A stretch of DNA of 64,000 nt from Prostheceraeus crozeri. Taxonomy: Eukaryota; Platyhelminthes; Polycladida; Euryleptidae. Every line of letters begins with the position of its first letter. Position 1 is the first letter of the stretch. Below are positions 14,463 to 56,270 of the stretch, piece after piece. The DNA lies in assembly GCA_907163375.1 (NCBI GenBank), contig CAJQUW010008747.1, positions 111,528-175,527 on the forward strand, in the 5' to 3' direction. Both the position numbers and the translations under genes were made by a program. A model generated the notes under the pieces. The model saw only the letters and a list, made by a program, of their open reading frames with translations, had not been told where the DNA came from and did not search any database.

Positions 14463-17415
14463 CCCTTTAGGGCACAGATCTCCATTTTACTGAGGAATCT
14501 TATTTTCTTCTCATGGATAGTTGTTATAGGGTCCCATTAAGACGTATCTCAAGTATTTTGAAAAATATATATCGGGAATATTATTTTGGGGGGTGGTACA
14601 TTTTTGTACCACTATACCCTAGTGAAATTTTCGCTCTCGGCAGATAGTTTTTTTGCAATTGTTGTTGCGCTCTTTAATGCAAGTACCTACGTAGGCATGG
14701 TTAAAATTGTATTTTGATATTGTGCAATATACCAAACCCCTGATGTTATTGTGTAATTCGGAGCACAACACTTGTTAGAGAAATGCCTGTTTTTCACATA
14801 CAACTCAAAAAATGATCAATCGATGATTGATGATGATTAGCAATATACATTATCATTCGTGTGTTGTGTCCAAATTTAGGCCTATCAAGCAATGGGGGAA
14901 TGAAACTATTCATGATAACATGAGTAGCAGTTCCTCTGACTATTCAGACATAGAGCAACGTCACAGATCCTCCAGAATACATTACTTCAGCAGTCGTTTT
15001 CGTTTGAAGAACAGAACGCACATCGTGCTCTATTGCTTTTGACAATTGGAAGGTGAGGAATACCATGGGATGATGGTTGGAGCAACTTTCGTTTCTTCGA
15101 CTTTGCCGATTCGAGCCACAGTTTGGATCTTGATGAGAATTGTCCTACAAGACCATGAACAATCTTCAAGCGAAAGTCCTTCGATGACATGGAAGGGACG
15201 TCTTTTATTTGCTTGTACACTATGTAGGCATTTGAAATGGCGGTGTCAATTTGATCGAAGAATAGTCTGAGGTAGTATTTGTACCGGCTTCGGTGGTCGA
15301 TTTCATAGCATTCTTTCCTTTGATCAGAGATGTCCACACCTCCCATGTAGCAATTGTACATGGCTATCATTATCGGGATGTCAACCTCTGCCTTTTGTGC
15401 CGATCCTTTGACTTTTCGCTGTTTAGAGGTCGCTCCATGAGGCGTCAAGTAATTCAATACAGCGTACACGCACCGTCGATTCTTCCATTGGATAAATGCT
15501 ACCTTCCCATTGCTTTAGACAGTGCCAAATGTTTCCCCAGACTTCATCGCTGCGTCAGTTTTTAATTGGGGCAAGTGCTTCTTGTTCTTTCGGATAGTTG
15601 CAACCGACTTGATGCCATATTCATGTAATTTCTCCATCAAGGGAACCGAAGAGAAAAAATTGTCAAACGCTAAAACACATCCTTTATCTCTAATGTTTTG
15701 TGACAGTTGCAGAACCACCGATTCGCCAAGTGTATGTGAAGAGTCGGAGAATTCATCAGGCTTTTTTCCGGTGTACAGGTGAGATTCGAAGACATAGCCT
15801 GTCTTTGCCGAAGCTCTGACCCACATTTTGAATCCCCAGCGCACTGATGGTTTGTTCTTGATGTATTGCTTAATGATGTTATGACCTTTAAATTTTATCT
15901 TTCGCTCGTCAATTGAATGGGATTTTGAAGGACTGATGGCATCCTGAAAGTGCATGTTGAAATGATCTAAAACCGCCTGAATCTTGTAGGCACGGTCATT
16001 AGGGGTGGCGTCCCAATTGTTAGAGAAGTGCAGATTCTTTCTAATTGCTTCGAATCTTGCCAGGGTCATTATATTATTCACAAATGGAACACCAACTGCT
16101 TTGTCAGTGGACCAATAATCCCTCATTTCAGGAAGAACATGCAGGCCCATTAGAACACAAATACCCACGAAGGCCTTCATTTCTTCTTCTTCAACAGAAA
16201 AAACGTTCCCATTTTGTTTCGCGTATTCGTGTGACTGGGGAATTAGTATGTCACCAATAAGTTGATTCAACCCAGAAACTTTGAGAAATACTTCATATGG
16301 ACAGTTCAGTTCAAGGATGTCAGACCGAATAATGTCATATTCAATTGTTTTTGAGAAAGATGGATTGGGTTGAAGACTAGCTTTGGTATTCCATGAGTTA
16401 CAGAAGAGGGTTTCTCTGGGTCCTGTCATAGTTGAAGTAGTAGGTCGTTCATCAGATTCAGGTGCTTGTGAAGTCGATGTGACGGCTTCGTCCAATCCGG
16501 CGTCATAGTCCGCTTCAAGGAAAGACATATCCTCTTCATCAACATGGGTAGGCTCTTCATCGGAATCATCGGCGAAAAGCAATTGTATTGCCTGTCGACC
16601 AGCAGATCGTTTGGTGATGAAAATTCTTTCCGTCATCACCTGAATGAAATAAGAAGTCAAATTTGAAACAGCAGCTACTTGTAATCATTTTCTGATTCTG
16701 TACATTATTTAGAAGATTCAATGTATTACTTAATGTCACAGAAAGTAAACATCTACGGTATAAATAATAATTGAGGCATAAGCACCACAGAAACGGACAT
16801 AGCCTAGTGGAACAACTTCGGAATAACGATGCTAATAGTGTGTGGTCGAGTCTCTGAAGAAATAATTTTGCCAAAAACTACATTGGTGGAGCGTCATAGA
16901 GGCAAAAGCGTATCTAGGCTTTTTGGATGTATGTCAAGTACCTAGCAATACATTTTTCAGAACATGTACTAGCATTCGTGAATATTTCATTAAGTTTGCA
17001 TAATTTTCTTCTAAGGCTTTGTGGTATATATTTGTACCACCTACGTGTTCTATTTCAATTTTGCACAAACAGACAAATTATCAGCTCATGTCTTGACCAA
17101 TTATGTTTTTTTAGGTTATCATCTTACCAAAATTGTGGTAGAAAAGTTACTAGAACATGAAAGAGACAGATGACATGAACACTTACCCGATGCAAGTCCC
17201 AAAAAGTCGATAATGAAAAAAATGTCCAATTTCATCGTCTGTATCCACTAGAAAATAATTGATTTTGTAAAACAAACTCGTCACAGCTTTTTTTCAATGC
17301 ATTTTCTACCAAGTTGTTAGATATGGCAAATGACAACGGAAAACAAGAGCCAAAACACGATCAGAAAAGAATACATTGTTGGTGGTATAAAAATGTACCA
17401 CTAAAACCTAAAGGG
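14463..17415 (-). mobile_element. Complete piggyBac element (2.95 kb)
   Basis: It is flanked by TTAA at 14459-14462 and 17416-17419, the canonical piggyBac target. Terminal inverted repeats begin CCCTTTAGG at both ends. Subterminal copies of ggtac/gtacc-rich sequence (about 14582-14606 and 17388-17402) are also inverted. It sits a few codons into the capsid gene of the AT-rich Maverick. Both ends are intact, so the DNA could be mobilised in trans although its transposase is frameshifted. Confidence 0.95.
14987..16660 (-). pseudogene. piggyBac transposase, one frameshift
   Basis: Two minus-strand frames, 16660-15515 and 15469-14987, together span the DDE_Tnp_1_7 transposase. The three catalytic Asp regions are visible as HSIDERKIKFKG, VLAFDNFFSS and CYMGGVDISDQ. 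The N terminus is acidic (FADDSDEEPTHVDEED), as usual for the family. A frameshift between about 15470 and 15520 separates the first two Asp regions from the third. The Cys-rich C-terminal domain starts (RARCAFCSSNEND) but is cut by a stop at 14987, with more Cys codons in another frame. It is therefore inactive, though only lightly damaged and probably recent. Confidence 0.93.
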
Positions 17416-35000: not shown

Positions 35001-35712
35001 AGTCTAACAAGCTCTTTACACATGGATCGCAGTCGATTGCTATCCCTGTATCAGAAGTGTAAGCTATCTTAATTTTATTTAACACTATTTCATCTACTAT
35101 TATCACCTATATGAAATGTTGTAAGATTTGCAAGTTAAACTAAGCGTGCTACTAATTCCAAATGAAAAAGTATACATGGTTAAATCATCCACTGAAGACC
35201 CATTCAAGTAAGTCAGTATGAAAGCAAAGATAATACGAAATAAACATTTATTATGGCATGTATTTCAAAAGGTCTTCATCGTCAATATCGTCCGAGAGTC
35301 TGGCTTCACATAGATCACAAAAATAGTTCACTTGCTTCAATCGTTCTTCTACCGAGAGTCTAGCAAGCTCTTTACACATGGATTGCAGTCGATTGCTATC
35401 CCTGTATCAGAAGTGTAAGCTATCTTAATTTTATTTAACACTATTTCATCAACCATTATCACCCATATGAAATGTTATAAGATTTGCAAGTTAAACTAAG
35501 CGTGCTACTAATTCCAAATGAAAAAGTATACATGGTTAAATCATCCACTGAAGACCCATTCAAGTAAGTCAGTATGAAAGCAAAGATAATACGAAATAAA
35601 CATTTATTATGGCATGTATTTCAAAAGGTCTTCATCATCAATATCGTCCGAGAGTCTGGCTTCACATAGATCACAAAAACAGTTCACTTGTTTCAATCGT
35701 TCTTCTACCGCG
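35001..35712. repeat. 356-bp tandem duplication
   Basis: 35,001-35,356 and 35,357-35,712 are nearly identical, for example ctctttacacatgga at 35,012 and 35,368. The second copy contains the 3' end of the minus-strand gene at 35,607-36,056; the first holds a truncated copy of that end (about 35,250-35,356). Confidence 0.9.
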
Positions 35713-42018: not shown

Positions 42019-43416
42019 TTAACTCTTCATTCGGAAATGGAGTGTGATACTTGTCACAGCATCTTTATGAAAAGGAATCAATGCACCAGCATCGTCATAA
42101 ATTGCAATATCAATTTGTGGGATGTAGTTTGATTTCAGCTTTGTATAATGCACTTTCTTGAAAGTATGCTCAGATAAAATACTGCAGCTTTTTGGCTGGT
42201 ATGGTATCATTGCTAGCAATGGAGCTTCAACATCTCCTACACGTACATCTTCACCAATATTGGAATATATCTGAAAATAGTTAATACGACGCGATAGTGA
42301 CATGTCTGCGCTAGCTTTGGTTACAGTACCACTTTTAAAGATATTTTGATCAAAACCCAAAATGTCCATTAGAGTTTTATCCATAATTAGTTCAATACCT
42401 TTTCCACTTATAGTGAGAGACAAAACACCTTCTTTTTCAGAAAATAAAATATGTTGCTCATTAATCACTTCATTTAAATAATCTACAACCAATTTAACCG
42501 AAGTAATAATGCGAGGCATCAACAATCTTGTTTCATGTAAGATACCACCTAAAGGCTCTACACACTTTCTGTATAAAGATACGGTCCATTCTGTATCAAA
42601 TTGATTTGACCTTTCACATGGTAAATGTTTCATATCAAATTTTCCATGAACAGCTGCAGAATGATGTCGTAAGAACTGATGAAAATCTTTTGAACAAACT
42701 AATACTAGATCATCATCATTTAATTTACTTATTGCAATATGATTAGATGATTTGATATAAGTCAATGTTGCCACTTGTTTACCATCAACTCGAAGGAGAT
42801 AATTAAATTTCTTCAATAATGTTTCAGGAGTCATGTTTGTCTTCCTTGGCTTAATCACAATCTTCTTCACCAACGCCTTCTCATTTTTTGGGATAAGATC
42901 TACATAATAAGCCTCCTCTCGATATATTAACTGTTTATGACCACTTATGTGGTAATTAACGTTATACTTATCATAGCTTGTTAAGGCGCTAGCGAGGTAA
43001 CCTAAATCATTTCTTAAACTTGGACTTAAACCAACAATCCAATCTTTCTCAACTACATGATGTACATAATTATAATCATCATTGTGCGGAGTAAATTGGA
43101 CAATATGTTTACACGCTTTATTCAAGAAATCATATATAAACTTTTTACATGATAAGAGATCTTTCTTTGGCCACTGTGGAATGTATACTCGGCAGCCCTT
43201 TTCACATTGGTAAGCAGCTGTGCGTCTCATATTAATAGTCATCACCTCATGATCAAAAGCATAGACACAGTTGCTATGAACAAGCTGAGTGACACCCACT
43301 TCCCACTTTCCATTTAGCTGTTGTGTATGATCAATGGGAGTAGAAAAGAGTGCGGCTCGATTACTAGCAAATCTATTTGCGGCCGCATTGCTAAGCAAAA
43401 TATGATAAAACGACAT
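42019..43416 (-). CDS. Large Maverick virion-type protein B (465 aa)
   Basis: An intact frame begins MSFYHILLSNAAANRFASNR, then DHTQQLNGKWEVGVTQLVH. It shares the opening fold with protein A 28 bp downstream (S N A ... L.G.WEVG) and has the same overall size, so the pair arose by duplication. The middle contains LLMPRIITSVKLVVDYLNEV, which resembles the INIMPRLYHTVESFIHVVNP segment of protein A. Its start faces the plus-strand PC4-like cluster at 43,452, so the 36-bp gap between them must hold or overlap divergent control sequences. A structural role is inferred. Confidence 0.6.
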   Translation of the reverse strand: MSFYHILLSNAAANRFASNRAALFSTPIDHTQQLNGKWEVGVTQLVHSNCVYAFDHEVMTINMRRTAAYQCEKGCRVYIPQWPKKDLLSCKKFIYDFLNKACKHIVQFTPHNDDYNYVHHVVEKDWIVGLSPSLRNDLGYLASALTSYDKYNVNYHISGHKQLIYREEAYYVDLIPKNEKALVKKIVIKPRKTNMTPETLLKKFNYLLRVDGKQVATLTYIKSSNHIAISKLNDDDLVLVCSKDFHQFLRHHSAAVHGKFDMKHLPCERSNQFDTEWTVSLYRKCVEPLGGILHETRLLMPRIITSVKLVVDYLNEVINEQHILFSEKEGVLSLTISGKGIELIMDKTLMDILGFDQNIFKSGTVTKASADMSLSRRINYFQIYSNIGEDVRVGDVEAPLLAMIPYQPKSCSILSEHTFKKVHYTKLKSNYIPQIDIAIYDDAGALIPFHKDAVTSITLHFRMKS

Positions 43417-43451: not shown

Positions 43452-43808
43452 ATGAAGACTTGGATTTTGGACTCTCTACAATATATCAGAGTTGACCGTA
43501 ATGGAAACGTGCATTTCAAAAATTCTCATGGTCATACTGCAAGAGGTATTACATTAACATGGCGACAATTTGTCAACCTCAATGATATCATGAGGGATTT
43601 GGAATATTTTGAAACATTAAGATTCATCTCCTTAGGTGATCAAGTTTGGCTTCAACGTCGCAACAATGAAATTAAAATCTGTCATTCTCATTCCGCAAAC
43701 TGTTTCTCATTTCGCAAATACAATTGGGAGAAGTATAGAAGATACGTACATCGCTCCATCATGACATTTATTCGTCGTGAGTTCATCGCCCTACTATGCA
43801 AATCTTAA
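43452..43808 (+). CDS. PC4-like protein 1 (~118 aa)
   Basis: An intact frame starts at 43,452 (MKTWILDSLQYIRVDRNGNV). It has two similar strand-helix units, GITLTWRQFVNLNDIMRDLE and CFSFRKYNWEKYRRYVHRS. Each looks like the GISLS..QW..L..L end of the PC4/p15 transcription coactivator fold. A basic strand pair (VWLQRRNNEIKIC) lies between. PC4 proteins bind single-stranded DNA and cooperate with TBP-TFIIA at promoters. The match is by pattern, not proven homology. It is followed 22 bp later by a clear paralogue and then by a TBP-like gene, which strengthens a transcription role. Confidence 0.5.
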   Translation: MKTWILDSLQYIRVDRNGNVHFKNSHGHTARGITLTWRQFVNLNDIMRDLEYFETLRFISLGDQVWLQRRNNEIKICHSHSANCFSFRKYNWEKYRRYVHRSIMTFIRREFIALLCKS

Positions 43809-43830
43809 TCAGACATGACTACCACGCACC

Positions 43831-44481
43831 ATGAGTTGGAAATTAGATTCCCTACAACGTATTGAAACGGATCATGATCGAAACGTCTATTTCAAAGATT
43901 CAACTGGAAATGTGAGAAGAGAGTTTGCTTTATCTTATCGTCATTTTCAATCTCTACATCATATCATGAAGGATTTGAAATACTTCTATATGAAAAGACA
44001 TTCACGTATTGGAAATCGCATCTGGTTGCGCGTCAACAATCGGCGAATTCAACTCTATCATTCCCAACTTCATACTAACTTCACATTTCATCAAGGTAGT
44101 TGGGAAAAGTATAAAAGGAAGGTACATCGCTCAATTTACTCATTCTTTCATCATGAAGCGCCATTGCTACACCATCGTCAACATTCTCCGTCGCTTCAGA
44201 CTCTACACCAAAATCGATCTCACAACATTACACCAACACCTTCCAAACAGCAAGTATTACCCGGGTCGACCTCAAATGTTAGTGGTGAAGATGAACAATT
44301 CACGGAATCTTCAACTCTTCCCAAATGGGACTGTACAGATTCTCGGCGCCCTTTCTTATTCATCGGCGTAGTCAATGCGCTTAGAGCTACAGAGACTACT
44401 ACGTCGGATATGGAAGAGGGAGAGGTGTGTGATGTCGAATCTGACTGTGGAAAATATGGTGATCTCTACTCAATTGAGTGA
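43831..44481 (+). CDS. PC4-like protein 2 (paralogue of 43,452 gene)
   Basis: The frame starts at 43,831 (MSWKLDSLQRIETDHDRNVY). It repeats the design of the upstream gene: EFALSYRHFQSLHHIMKDLK, IWLRVNNRRIQLYHS and SWEKYKRKVHRSIYSFF. The PC4-like part ends near 44,160. The frame stays open to 44,481, overlapping the TBP-like gene in another frame, but that tail looks like read-through of the other gene. In the outer Maverick the remnant of this gene also ends by overlapping the TBP-like start, so the overlap is an old feature and may couple translation of the two. Confidence 0.5.
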   Translation: MSWKLDSLQRIETDHDRNVYFKDSTGNVRREFALSYRHFQSLHHIMKDLKYFYMKRHSRIGNRIWLRVNNRRIQLYHSQLHTNFTFHQGSWEKYKRKVHRSIYSFFHHEAPLLHHRQHSPSLQTLHQNRSHNITPTPSKQQVLPGSTSNVSGEDEQFTESSTLPKWDCTDSRRPFLFIGVVNALRATETTTSDMEEGEVCDVESDCGKYGDLYSIE

Positions 44482-44698
44482 AAGTGTATCATTTTTGAAG
44501 ATTCGTACCAGCAGTTACAATTTGTGTTATGAACCCGAACTTTTTCCTGCAGCTCTCATTAGTTGTTGGTTACCTGTGCATGTTGCAATCTTTCATAATA
44601 GTAAAGTGATCATTACTGGACTAAAATCTCATGTGCAAGCAAATGTAATCCTAGACTATCTCATCGAGTATGTACGTACCCAGCGGATTGTAAAATAA
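44153..44698 (+). pseudogene. TATA-binding-protein-like gene (two TBP repeats), one TAG
   Basis: The frame from ATG 44,153 to TAA 44,698 is 181 codons, the size of the TBP core, with a single TAG at 44,369-44,371 between the halves. Repeat 1: IVNILRRFRLYTKIDLTTLH, then NSKYYPGRPQMLVVKM and NGTVQILGALS. Repeat 2: ENMVISTQL, then YEPELFPAALIS, VAIFHNSKVIITGLKS and a closing helix. YEPELFP and the strand ending in (V/T)GLK are hallmark TBP segments. The protein would bind TATA-like DNA with a saddle fold. It overlaps the end of the PC4-like gene. The TAG may be a pseudogene lesion, a sequencing error, or a read-through site. A second, more decayed homologue is at 55,552-55,978. Confidence 0.9.
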
Positions 44699-55984: not shown

Positions 55985-56270
55985 AAAACATGAGGGTTGA
56001 GTGAACTTCCCTTTTATACTTTTCTCATGAGGGCTTTTGAATAACGATGTAGCAGTGATCATTATGCAGAATCATCTCTTGAATGTAACCAATTATCGAT
56101 AGGTATACTCAGGTTTTGACCACAACGATTTACTTCTGTATCCACTTTTGGTAGGGATACCGTCGGGGTTTCGAAGATGGAGTCGAACACCGTTGTAACG
56201 CACTTGTTGCTTGTAGGTGGGATAGTCTTGAATTACCTTTTCAATTTTCGGTTTTCACAGCTCGAGATGA
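55985..56270 (-). pseudogene. PC4-like remnant upstream of the TBP-like gene
   Basis: One minus-strand frame with several stops ends EKYKREVHSTLMFFVNDD, which matches EKYKRKVHRSIYSFFHHE at the end of the PC4-like domain at 43,831. It overlaps the TBP-like ATG (55,978) in the same way. The N-terminal part is too decayed to align with confidence. Confidence 0.55.

Follow-up and report, generated by a model that had tools for sequence, protein, structure and literature searches.

To our knowledge, little is known of how Polintons (Mavericks) regulate the expression of their genes, and a dedicated viral initiation complex containing a TATA-binding protein (TBP) is otherwise known from giant viruses, mirusviruses, and herpesviruses. 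We describe here a TBP gene carried by a Maverick of the polyclad flatworm Prostheceraeus crozeri, in a stretch of 64,000 nucleotides (GCA_907163375.1, contig CAJQUW010008747.1, positions 111,528 through 175,527; herein the window). The nearest working model is provided by the herpesvirus proteins BcRF1, ORF24, and UL87, which are likewise virus-encoded and TBP-folded; they bind TATT elements, act together with five other proteins, and are critical for recruiting RNA polymerase II to viral late promoters, while their identity to archaeal TBP is only about 10% (PMC4893493). They come from an unrelated virus, whereas the entire Maverick protein consists of a compact TBP core with a recognizable sequence relationship. 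CpV-BQ1, a giant alga virus with genes for TBP as well as TFIIB, is presumed to redirect host RNA polymerase II (PMC12085832), TBP is present in 59% of mirusvirus genomes (PMC10132985), and mirus-like elements of an alga also carry it (PMC10675990). African swine fever virus B263R has three conserved phenylalanines, and TBPs with three phenylalanines have been discussed as tolerating TATA variants (PMC5825884).

Giant viruses and mirusviruses are large and belong to other groups, and a family with F99 changed to Pro and a PUR-type neighbor is not described in the excerpts compared. Giant viruses are the context in which the excerpt of PMC11464507 holds TBP alongside Polinton; in that of PMC7786948 the term occurs merely in a cited title, and those of PMC11071296 and PMC11071308 contain neither TBP, TATA, nor PC4. 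Within the open-access literature searched, we found no description of a TBP in Polintons and no paper on PC4 together with adintovirus; the founding adintovirus paper, which lies outside that literature, may contain a TBP.

Judging by sequence matches and modeled folds, a true TBP-fold protein is encoded by animal Mavericks of at least three lineages; in the copies examined, its gene follows immediately after one or two genes for proteins of the PUR/PC4 fold. The module in the window comprises the following features:

43452 through 43808, + strand: PURa, a 118-residue protein with modeled tandem PUR/PC4-fold units (frame, model, fold match)
43831 through 44481, + strand: PURb, a paralog of PURa, domain at about 43831 through 44196 (frame, paralogy, profile)
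44110 through 44117, + strand: TATAAAAG, 43 nt upstream of the TBP1 ATG and inside the PURb frame (motif reading; similar spacing in sister copies)
44153 through 44368, + strand: TBP1 repeat 1 (PF00352, match given from 44156)
44369 through 44371, + strand: in-frame TAG breaking TBP1 (sequence reading)
44372 through 44698, + strand: TBP1 repeat 2 and stop (PF00352, match given from 44375; database relatives)

The TBP1 frame runs from an ATG at 44153 to a TAA ending at 44698 on the + strand, a span of 181 codons including the internal TAG. Searched separately, its two halves score 38.5 and 35.2 bits against the Pfam TBP family (PF00352; cut-off 22.9), and each half on its own also matches TBP chains in the PDB. 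Of 36 candidate relatives for the second half, 34 match at E ≤ 0.01, the most similar being 93% identical. On the strength of these profile, PDB, and relative matches, a chance origin of the repeats is excluded. A saddle fold spans the whole modeled core, as in TBP; the best named viral fold matches are the TBPs of giant viruses, among viral entries of which several are unnamed and could include an adintovirus TBP; in these structure comparisons, a family's not being listed does not count against it. The in-frame TAG makes the window copy a damaged gene, and intact sister copies exist. Recoding of the TAG was considered and judged unlikely, because TAG terminates another open frame of the same element (49587 through 49916), the polymerase pieces are interrupted by TAG as well as by TAA, and the stop is absent at this position from sister copies L010, L015, and L018.

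PURa and PURb are 42% identical. PURa is modeled with a strand4-helix-strand4-helix topology and has tandem PUR repeats in one chain; its model is best matched by Pur-alpha repeats I-II, from which it differs in having only 9 to 13% identity and no Pfam match. Neither protein matches PC4, PUR, or any other Pfam family above cut-off, and a PC4 profile match was absent from all eight PUR-type family members scanned. Adintovirus MOSUB proteins (from a Branchiostoma lancelet and a Bos-associated insect) are the first and nineteenth viral fold matches of PURa, with E values of 2.2e-3 and 0.081 and TMq of 0.67 and 0.64; no match reached 1e-3. The name MOSUB probably points to the PC4 ortholog MoSub1. 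On the modeled fold, single-stranded DNA binding by the PUR-type products is probable.

A first-pass annotation of this DNA had recognized TBP in the 181-codon frame, with two tandem paralogs directly before it on the same strand. Both points hold, and both TBP-type repeats are real; the internal TAG had been overlooked. The paralogs had been described as PC4-like strand-helix units; the strand-helix units are borne out, and the likeness to PC4 has partial support, from the fold group and from no profile, with Pur-alpha repeats I-II as the best match.

The PURb frame remains open for about 108 codons inside the TBP1 gene. We do not claim double coding (overprinting) here, because TBP synonymous divergence is only slightly lower in the overlap than outside it (0.293 vs. 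0.370 for L010-L018; other pairs are mixed) and the PUR frame ends at different places in the third lineage described below. Many database proteins of 88 to 89 residues begin at TBP repeat 2 and may be gene-calling artifacts of the PUR/TBP overlap.

The module resides in an inserted unit with inverted ends, Maverick A, whose integrase passes the Pfam cut-offs for both of its domains, in agreement with the first-pass assignment to a Maverick. Its other features are as follows:

30166 through 53027, no strand assigned: Maverick A, 22,862 bp (inverted repeats; insertion by empty-site reading)
30162 through 30165 (left) and 53028 through 53031 (right), no strand assigned: 4-bp target-site duplication ACTA (empty-site reading)
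36447 through 39838, + strand: pieces of what we take to be DNA polymerase B, with stops and a frame change (endonuclease VII domain alone confirmed)
44725 through 45186, − strand: presumed capsid-maturation-type protease (no Pfam match in the window copy)
46562 through 47782, − strand: integrase (rve) with C-terminal chromodomain (PF00665 and PF00385 above cut-off)
48519 through 49184, − strand: packaging-type ATPase, in part a presumed label (sub-threshold AAA_14, E 0.0055, and Pox_A32, E 0.049)

The terminal inverted repeats (30166 through 30203 and 52988 through 53027) are 85% alike across 40 columns. Polintons normally have a 6-bp target duplication and longer terminal repeats; Maverick A differs in its ∼40-nt repeats and 4-bp duplication. 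The frames have putative motifs of a protein-primed DNA polymerase B; the endonuclease VII domain is above cut-off in Maverick A and below it in the intact 1241-residue polymerase of a sister copy (22.6 vs. 23.6), which matched no Pfam polymerase profile and no PDB sequence. The protease of sister copy L010 gives sub-threshold matches to Peptidase_C48 (E 0.01) and Peptidase_C5 (E 0.044). Several frames are presumably capsid genes, for which no Pfam family was found; the one that we take to be the major capsid gene (45186 through 45818) encodes 210 residues, whereas its matches in sister copies extend over about 1 kb and are divided into two or three parts, and, from this comparison, the window copy seems internally shortened. 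Maverick A also holds a 527-residue frame with DUF7869 (31264 through 32847) and a tandem duplication of 361 nt (97%) at 35001 through 35717.

A second Maverick in the window, Maverick B, has the following features:

28143 through 30165, + strand: 5′ part of the Maverick B polymerase gene, split by Maverick A (match to A frames; empty-site reading)
53028 through 54697, + strand: 3′ part of the same gene (match to A frames; empty-site reading)
55555 through 55978, − strand: TBP2, a second decayed TBP gene (repeat 1, profile E 4.9e-24)
55965 through 56024, − strand: tail of a PUR-type gene directly upstream of TBP2 (supported more by its position than by the profile, which alone gives E 0.11)

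TBP2 has a stop, frame changes, and a partly missing repeat 2, and is 70% identical to P0131 across 109 aligned positions. The PUR tail ranks third by profile among 1942 window pieces, behind the two true PUR genes, and contains TATAAAAG at 56018 through 56011, 43 nt from the TBP2 ATG (55975). Maverick A (30166 through 53027) lies nested in the Maverick B polymerase gene (28143 through 54697), with the 4-bp duplication readable; the gene reads in frame across the junction, shows a later stop, and is itself decayed, and its pieces are 32 to 59% identical to the Maverick A polymerase frames. The two elements share an unnamed gene (40%; 49913 through 50323 and 57327 through 56926). Inverted repeats at 26.05 and 58.2 kb were not accepted as Maverick B ends, because the same repeat is present elsewhere in the window.

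Across the host genome (2.05 Gb), at least 150 TBP matches are present: 150 were scored out of 10,982 first-look candidates, every scored one is over cut-off, and the window copies are not among them. By table reading, 4 of the 150 lie at genes taken as host genes (C9306 and C3829), and a stop interrupts the matched region in 8 of the remaining 146. Twenty stretches of up to 10 kb were chosen by hand, non-randomly, mostly for open frames and in three cases with inverted pairs. They hold 23 TBP copies (17 uninterrupted); all 20 match window Maverick proteins, 19 have a PUR match beside the TBP (L023 has none at E ≤ 0.01), and 9 have an integrase match. Three lineages can be distinguished: lineage 1 is like Maverick A, with two PUR genes (L009-L011, L015, L018, and L019); lineage 2 resembles Maverick B in that its TBP gene lies close to that of the polymerase (L012-L014, L016, L017, and L020-L025); and lineage 3 has about 29 to 67% protein identity to Maverick A and a similar gene order (L026-L028). 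With TBP in Maverick B and in all 20 chosen stretches, recurrence of the gene in other Mavericks, on which the first-pass annotation had made its reading depend, is observed, and for TBP the alternative of a host fragment lacking Maverick partners falls away. Over window positions 43000 through 45200, identity is 96.7 to 97.4% with five copies and 85.3% with L018. The Maverick B-type stretches L021, L022, and L023 are, over most of their length, near-perfect palindromes (arms of about 3 to 4.6 kb, 99 to 99.7%) with TBP on each arm; they may be terminal repeats of great length, palindromes formed in replication, or artifacts of assembly.

Sequence comparison places the family under purifying selection: among 12 uninterrupted TBP copies, which form 21 non-independent pairs within lineages, the ratio of nonsynonymous to synonymous differences (pN/pS) is below 1 in 20, the exception being a near-identical pair; for L010-L018 it is 0.35. 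A tree was built of 73 chosen members with yeast TBP as the outgroup; its deep support is weak. Scans of IMG/VR contigs (with TBP half 2, TBP alignments A1 and A3, P0108, the ATPase, the integrase, and PUR alignment A4), of GTDB contigs (TBP alignment A3), and of phage records gave no confirmed relative; records of the window's own genome were possibly excluded from these scans.

On balance, and by analogy with the herpesvirus proteins, we favor a reading in which the element TBP recognizes the element's own TATA-like promoters and recruits host TFIIB and RNA polymerase II, assisted by the PUR proteins. The TBP would bind TATA-like elements in element promoters, mainly via its conserved second repeat, and would recruit TFIIB and the polymerase as the beta- and gammaherpesvirus TBP-like proteins do at late genes. 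The probable ligand of the PUR-type proteins is single-stranded DNA, at promoters or during replication, and their binding would aid the initiation step. Residues F116, F190, F207, N69, and N159 are kept (all letters present), as are two glutamates in 137 and 140 of 142 proteins; we take these positions to be those that kink DNA and contact TFIIB. The TFIIB stirrup of repeat 2 and the three kept phenylalanines would fit binding and bending of AT-rich DNA and TFIIB recruitment. A TATAWA box lies 43 to 47 nt before the TBP start in 9 of 12 uninterrupted copies and 58 nt before a script-chosen start in a tenth; the remaining two have TATAGA and TATGAA at its place. Of the TATAWA boxes at the element's gene starts, this is the one that was compared with sister copies, and it recurs there.

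Several observations weigh against this reading. Of the four intercalating phenylalanines the family keeps three: F99 has been lost from every one of 106 proteins, with Pro in its place in 103, and the DNA-face residues V122, T124, V203, and L205 are changed in nearly all. Because of these losses, canonical TATA binding is uncertain on sequence grounds; since three-phenylalanine TBPs are known, the loss of F99 does not disqualify the family as TBPs. Helix 2 positions 133 and 138 are acidic in 55 and 60 of the 73 chosen members; we take them to be basic TFIIA/NC2 contacts in other TBPs. The TATA box sits within the PUR coding frame, where it forms Tyr-Lys codons, and its conservation may therefore be due in part to coding constraint. 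(Of 142 proteins, 81 could be placed; where the upstream sequence of a database relative was long enough, Gly stands at −17 in 17 of 21, as expected if the Trp codon of the PUR gene overlaps there.) The idea that the element carries its own promoter-recognition factors thus keeps its footing in the TBP, its Maverick residence, and its recurrence, but the accompanying claim that the element's genes are generally TATA-driven is not supported: TATAWA is unenriched upstream of 19 gene starts (3 observed vs. 2.11 expected, TBP box included), and no further shared upstream motif was found there (best k-mer p 0.0017, nothing beyond multiple testing). Finally, both window TBP copies are broken.

A more elaborate version is possible, and we hold it tentatively: the TBP with its altered repeat 1 and the PUR/PC4-fold helpers may assemble, with host RNA polymerase II, a pre-initiation complex specific to the virus that uses a variant core element and is freed from host TFIIA/NC2 control. 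It is unlikely that the proteins are instead replication factors, the PUR proteins coating single strands during strand displacement and the TBP marking or bending DNA near origins, since replication leaves the kept TFIIB-contact glutamates unexplained and a TATA box recurs before the TBP gene. The altered DNA face of repeat 1 beside kept TFIIB contacts, and the acidic patch where we presume TFIIA/NC2 contacts, would suit a decoy that titrates host TFIIB or occupies host promoters to lower host transcription; the kept F116, F190, F207, N69, and N159 suggest real DNA binding, and we regard a decoy as improbable.

The host has its own canonical TBP (L001, 80% identical to yeast TBP across 119 residues), a further piece of it (L003, 94% across 34 residues), and a second TBP-related gene (L002), which we take to be TRF2-like; these loci, about 3 kb each, gave no match to window Maverick proteins. 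The canonical host TBP being a different gene, the element TBP is a separate family, with a median identity of about 21% to yeast TBP (n = 73). That the element gene is a chance-captured host fragment drifting without function would suit the two broken window copies but is highly improbable, given this low identity, a host gene without a Maverick match in its 3.2-kb locus, and the family's presence in three lineages under purifying selection, and is tenable only for individual dead copies.

Elsewhere in the window, reverse transcriptase and GIY-YIG elements, presumably Penelope-like, occur in 99% identical repeats (2102 through 9372), and transposase pieces at 14987 through 16660 match Pfam DDE_Tnp_1_7, which we take to be piggyBac.

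A selected TBP common to three Maverick lineages offers a concrete handle on Maverick gene expression. If it works as proposed, small animal DNA viruses would be expected to have promoters specific to the element and an initiation complex of their own, and the family-wide loss of one presumed DNA-kinking phenylalanine amounts to a natural experiment on DNA recognition by TBP.
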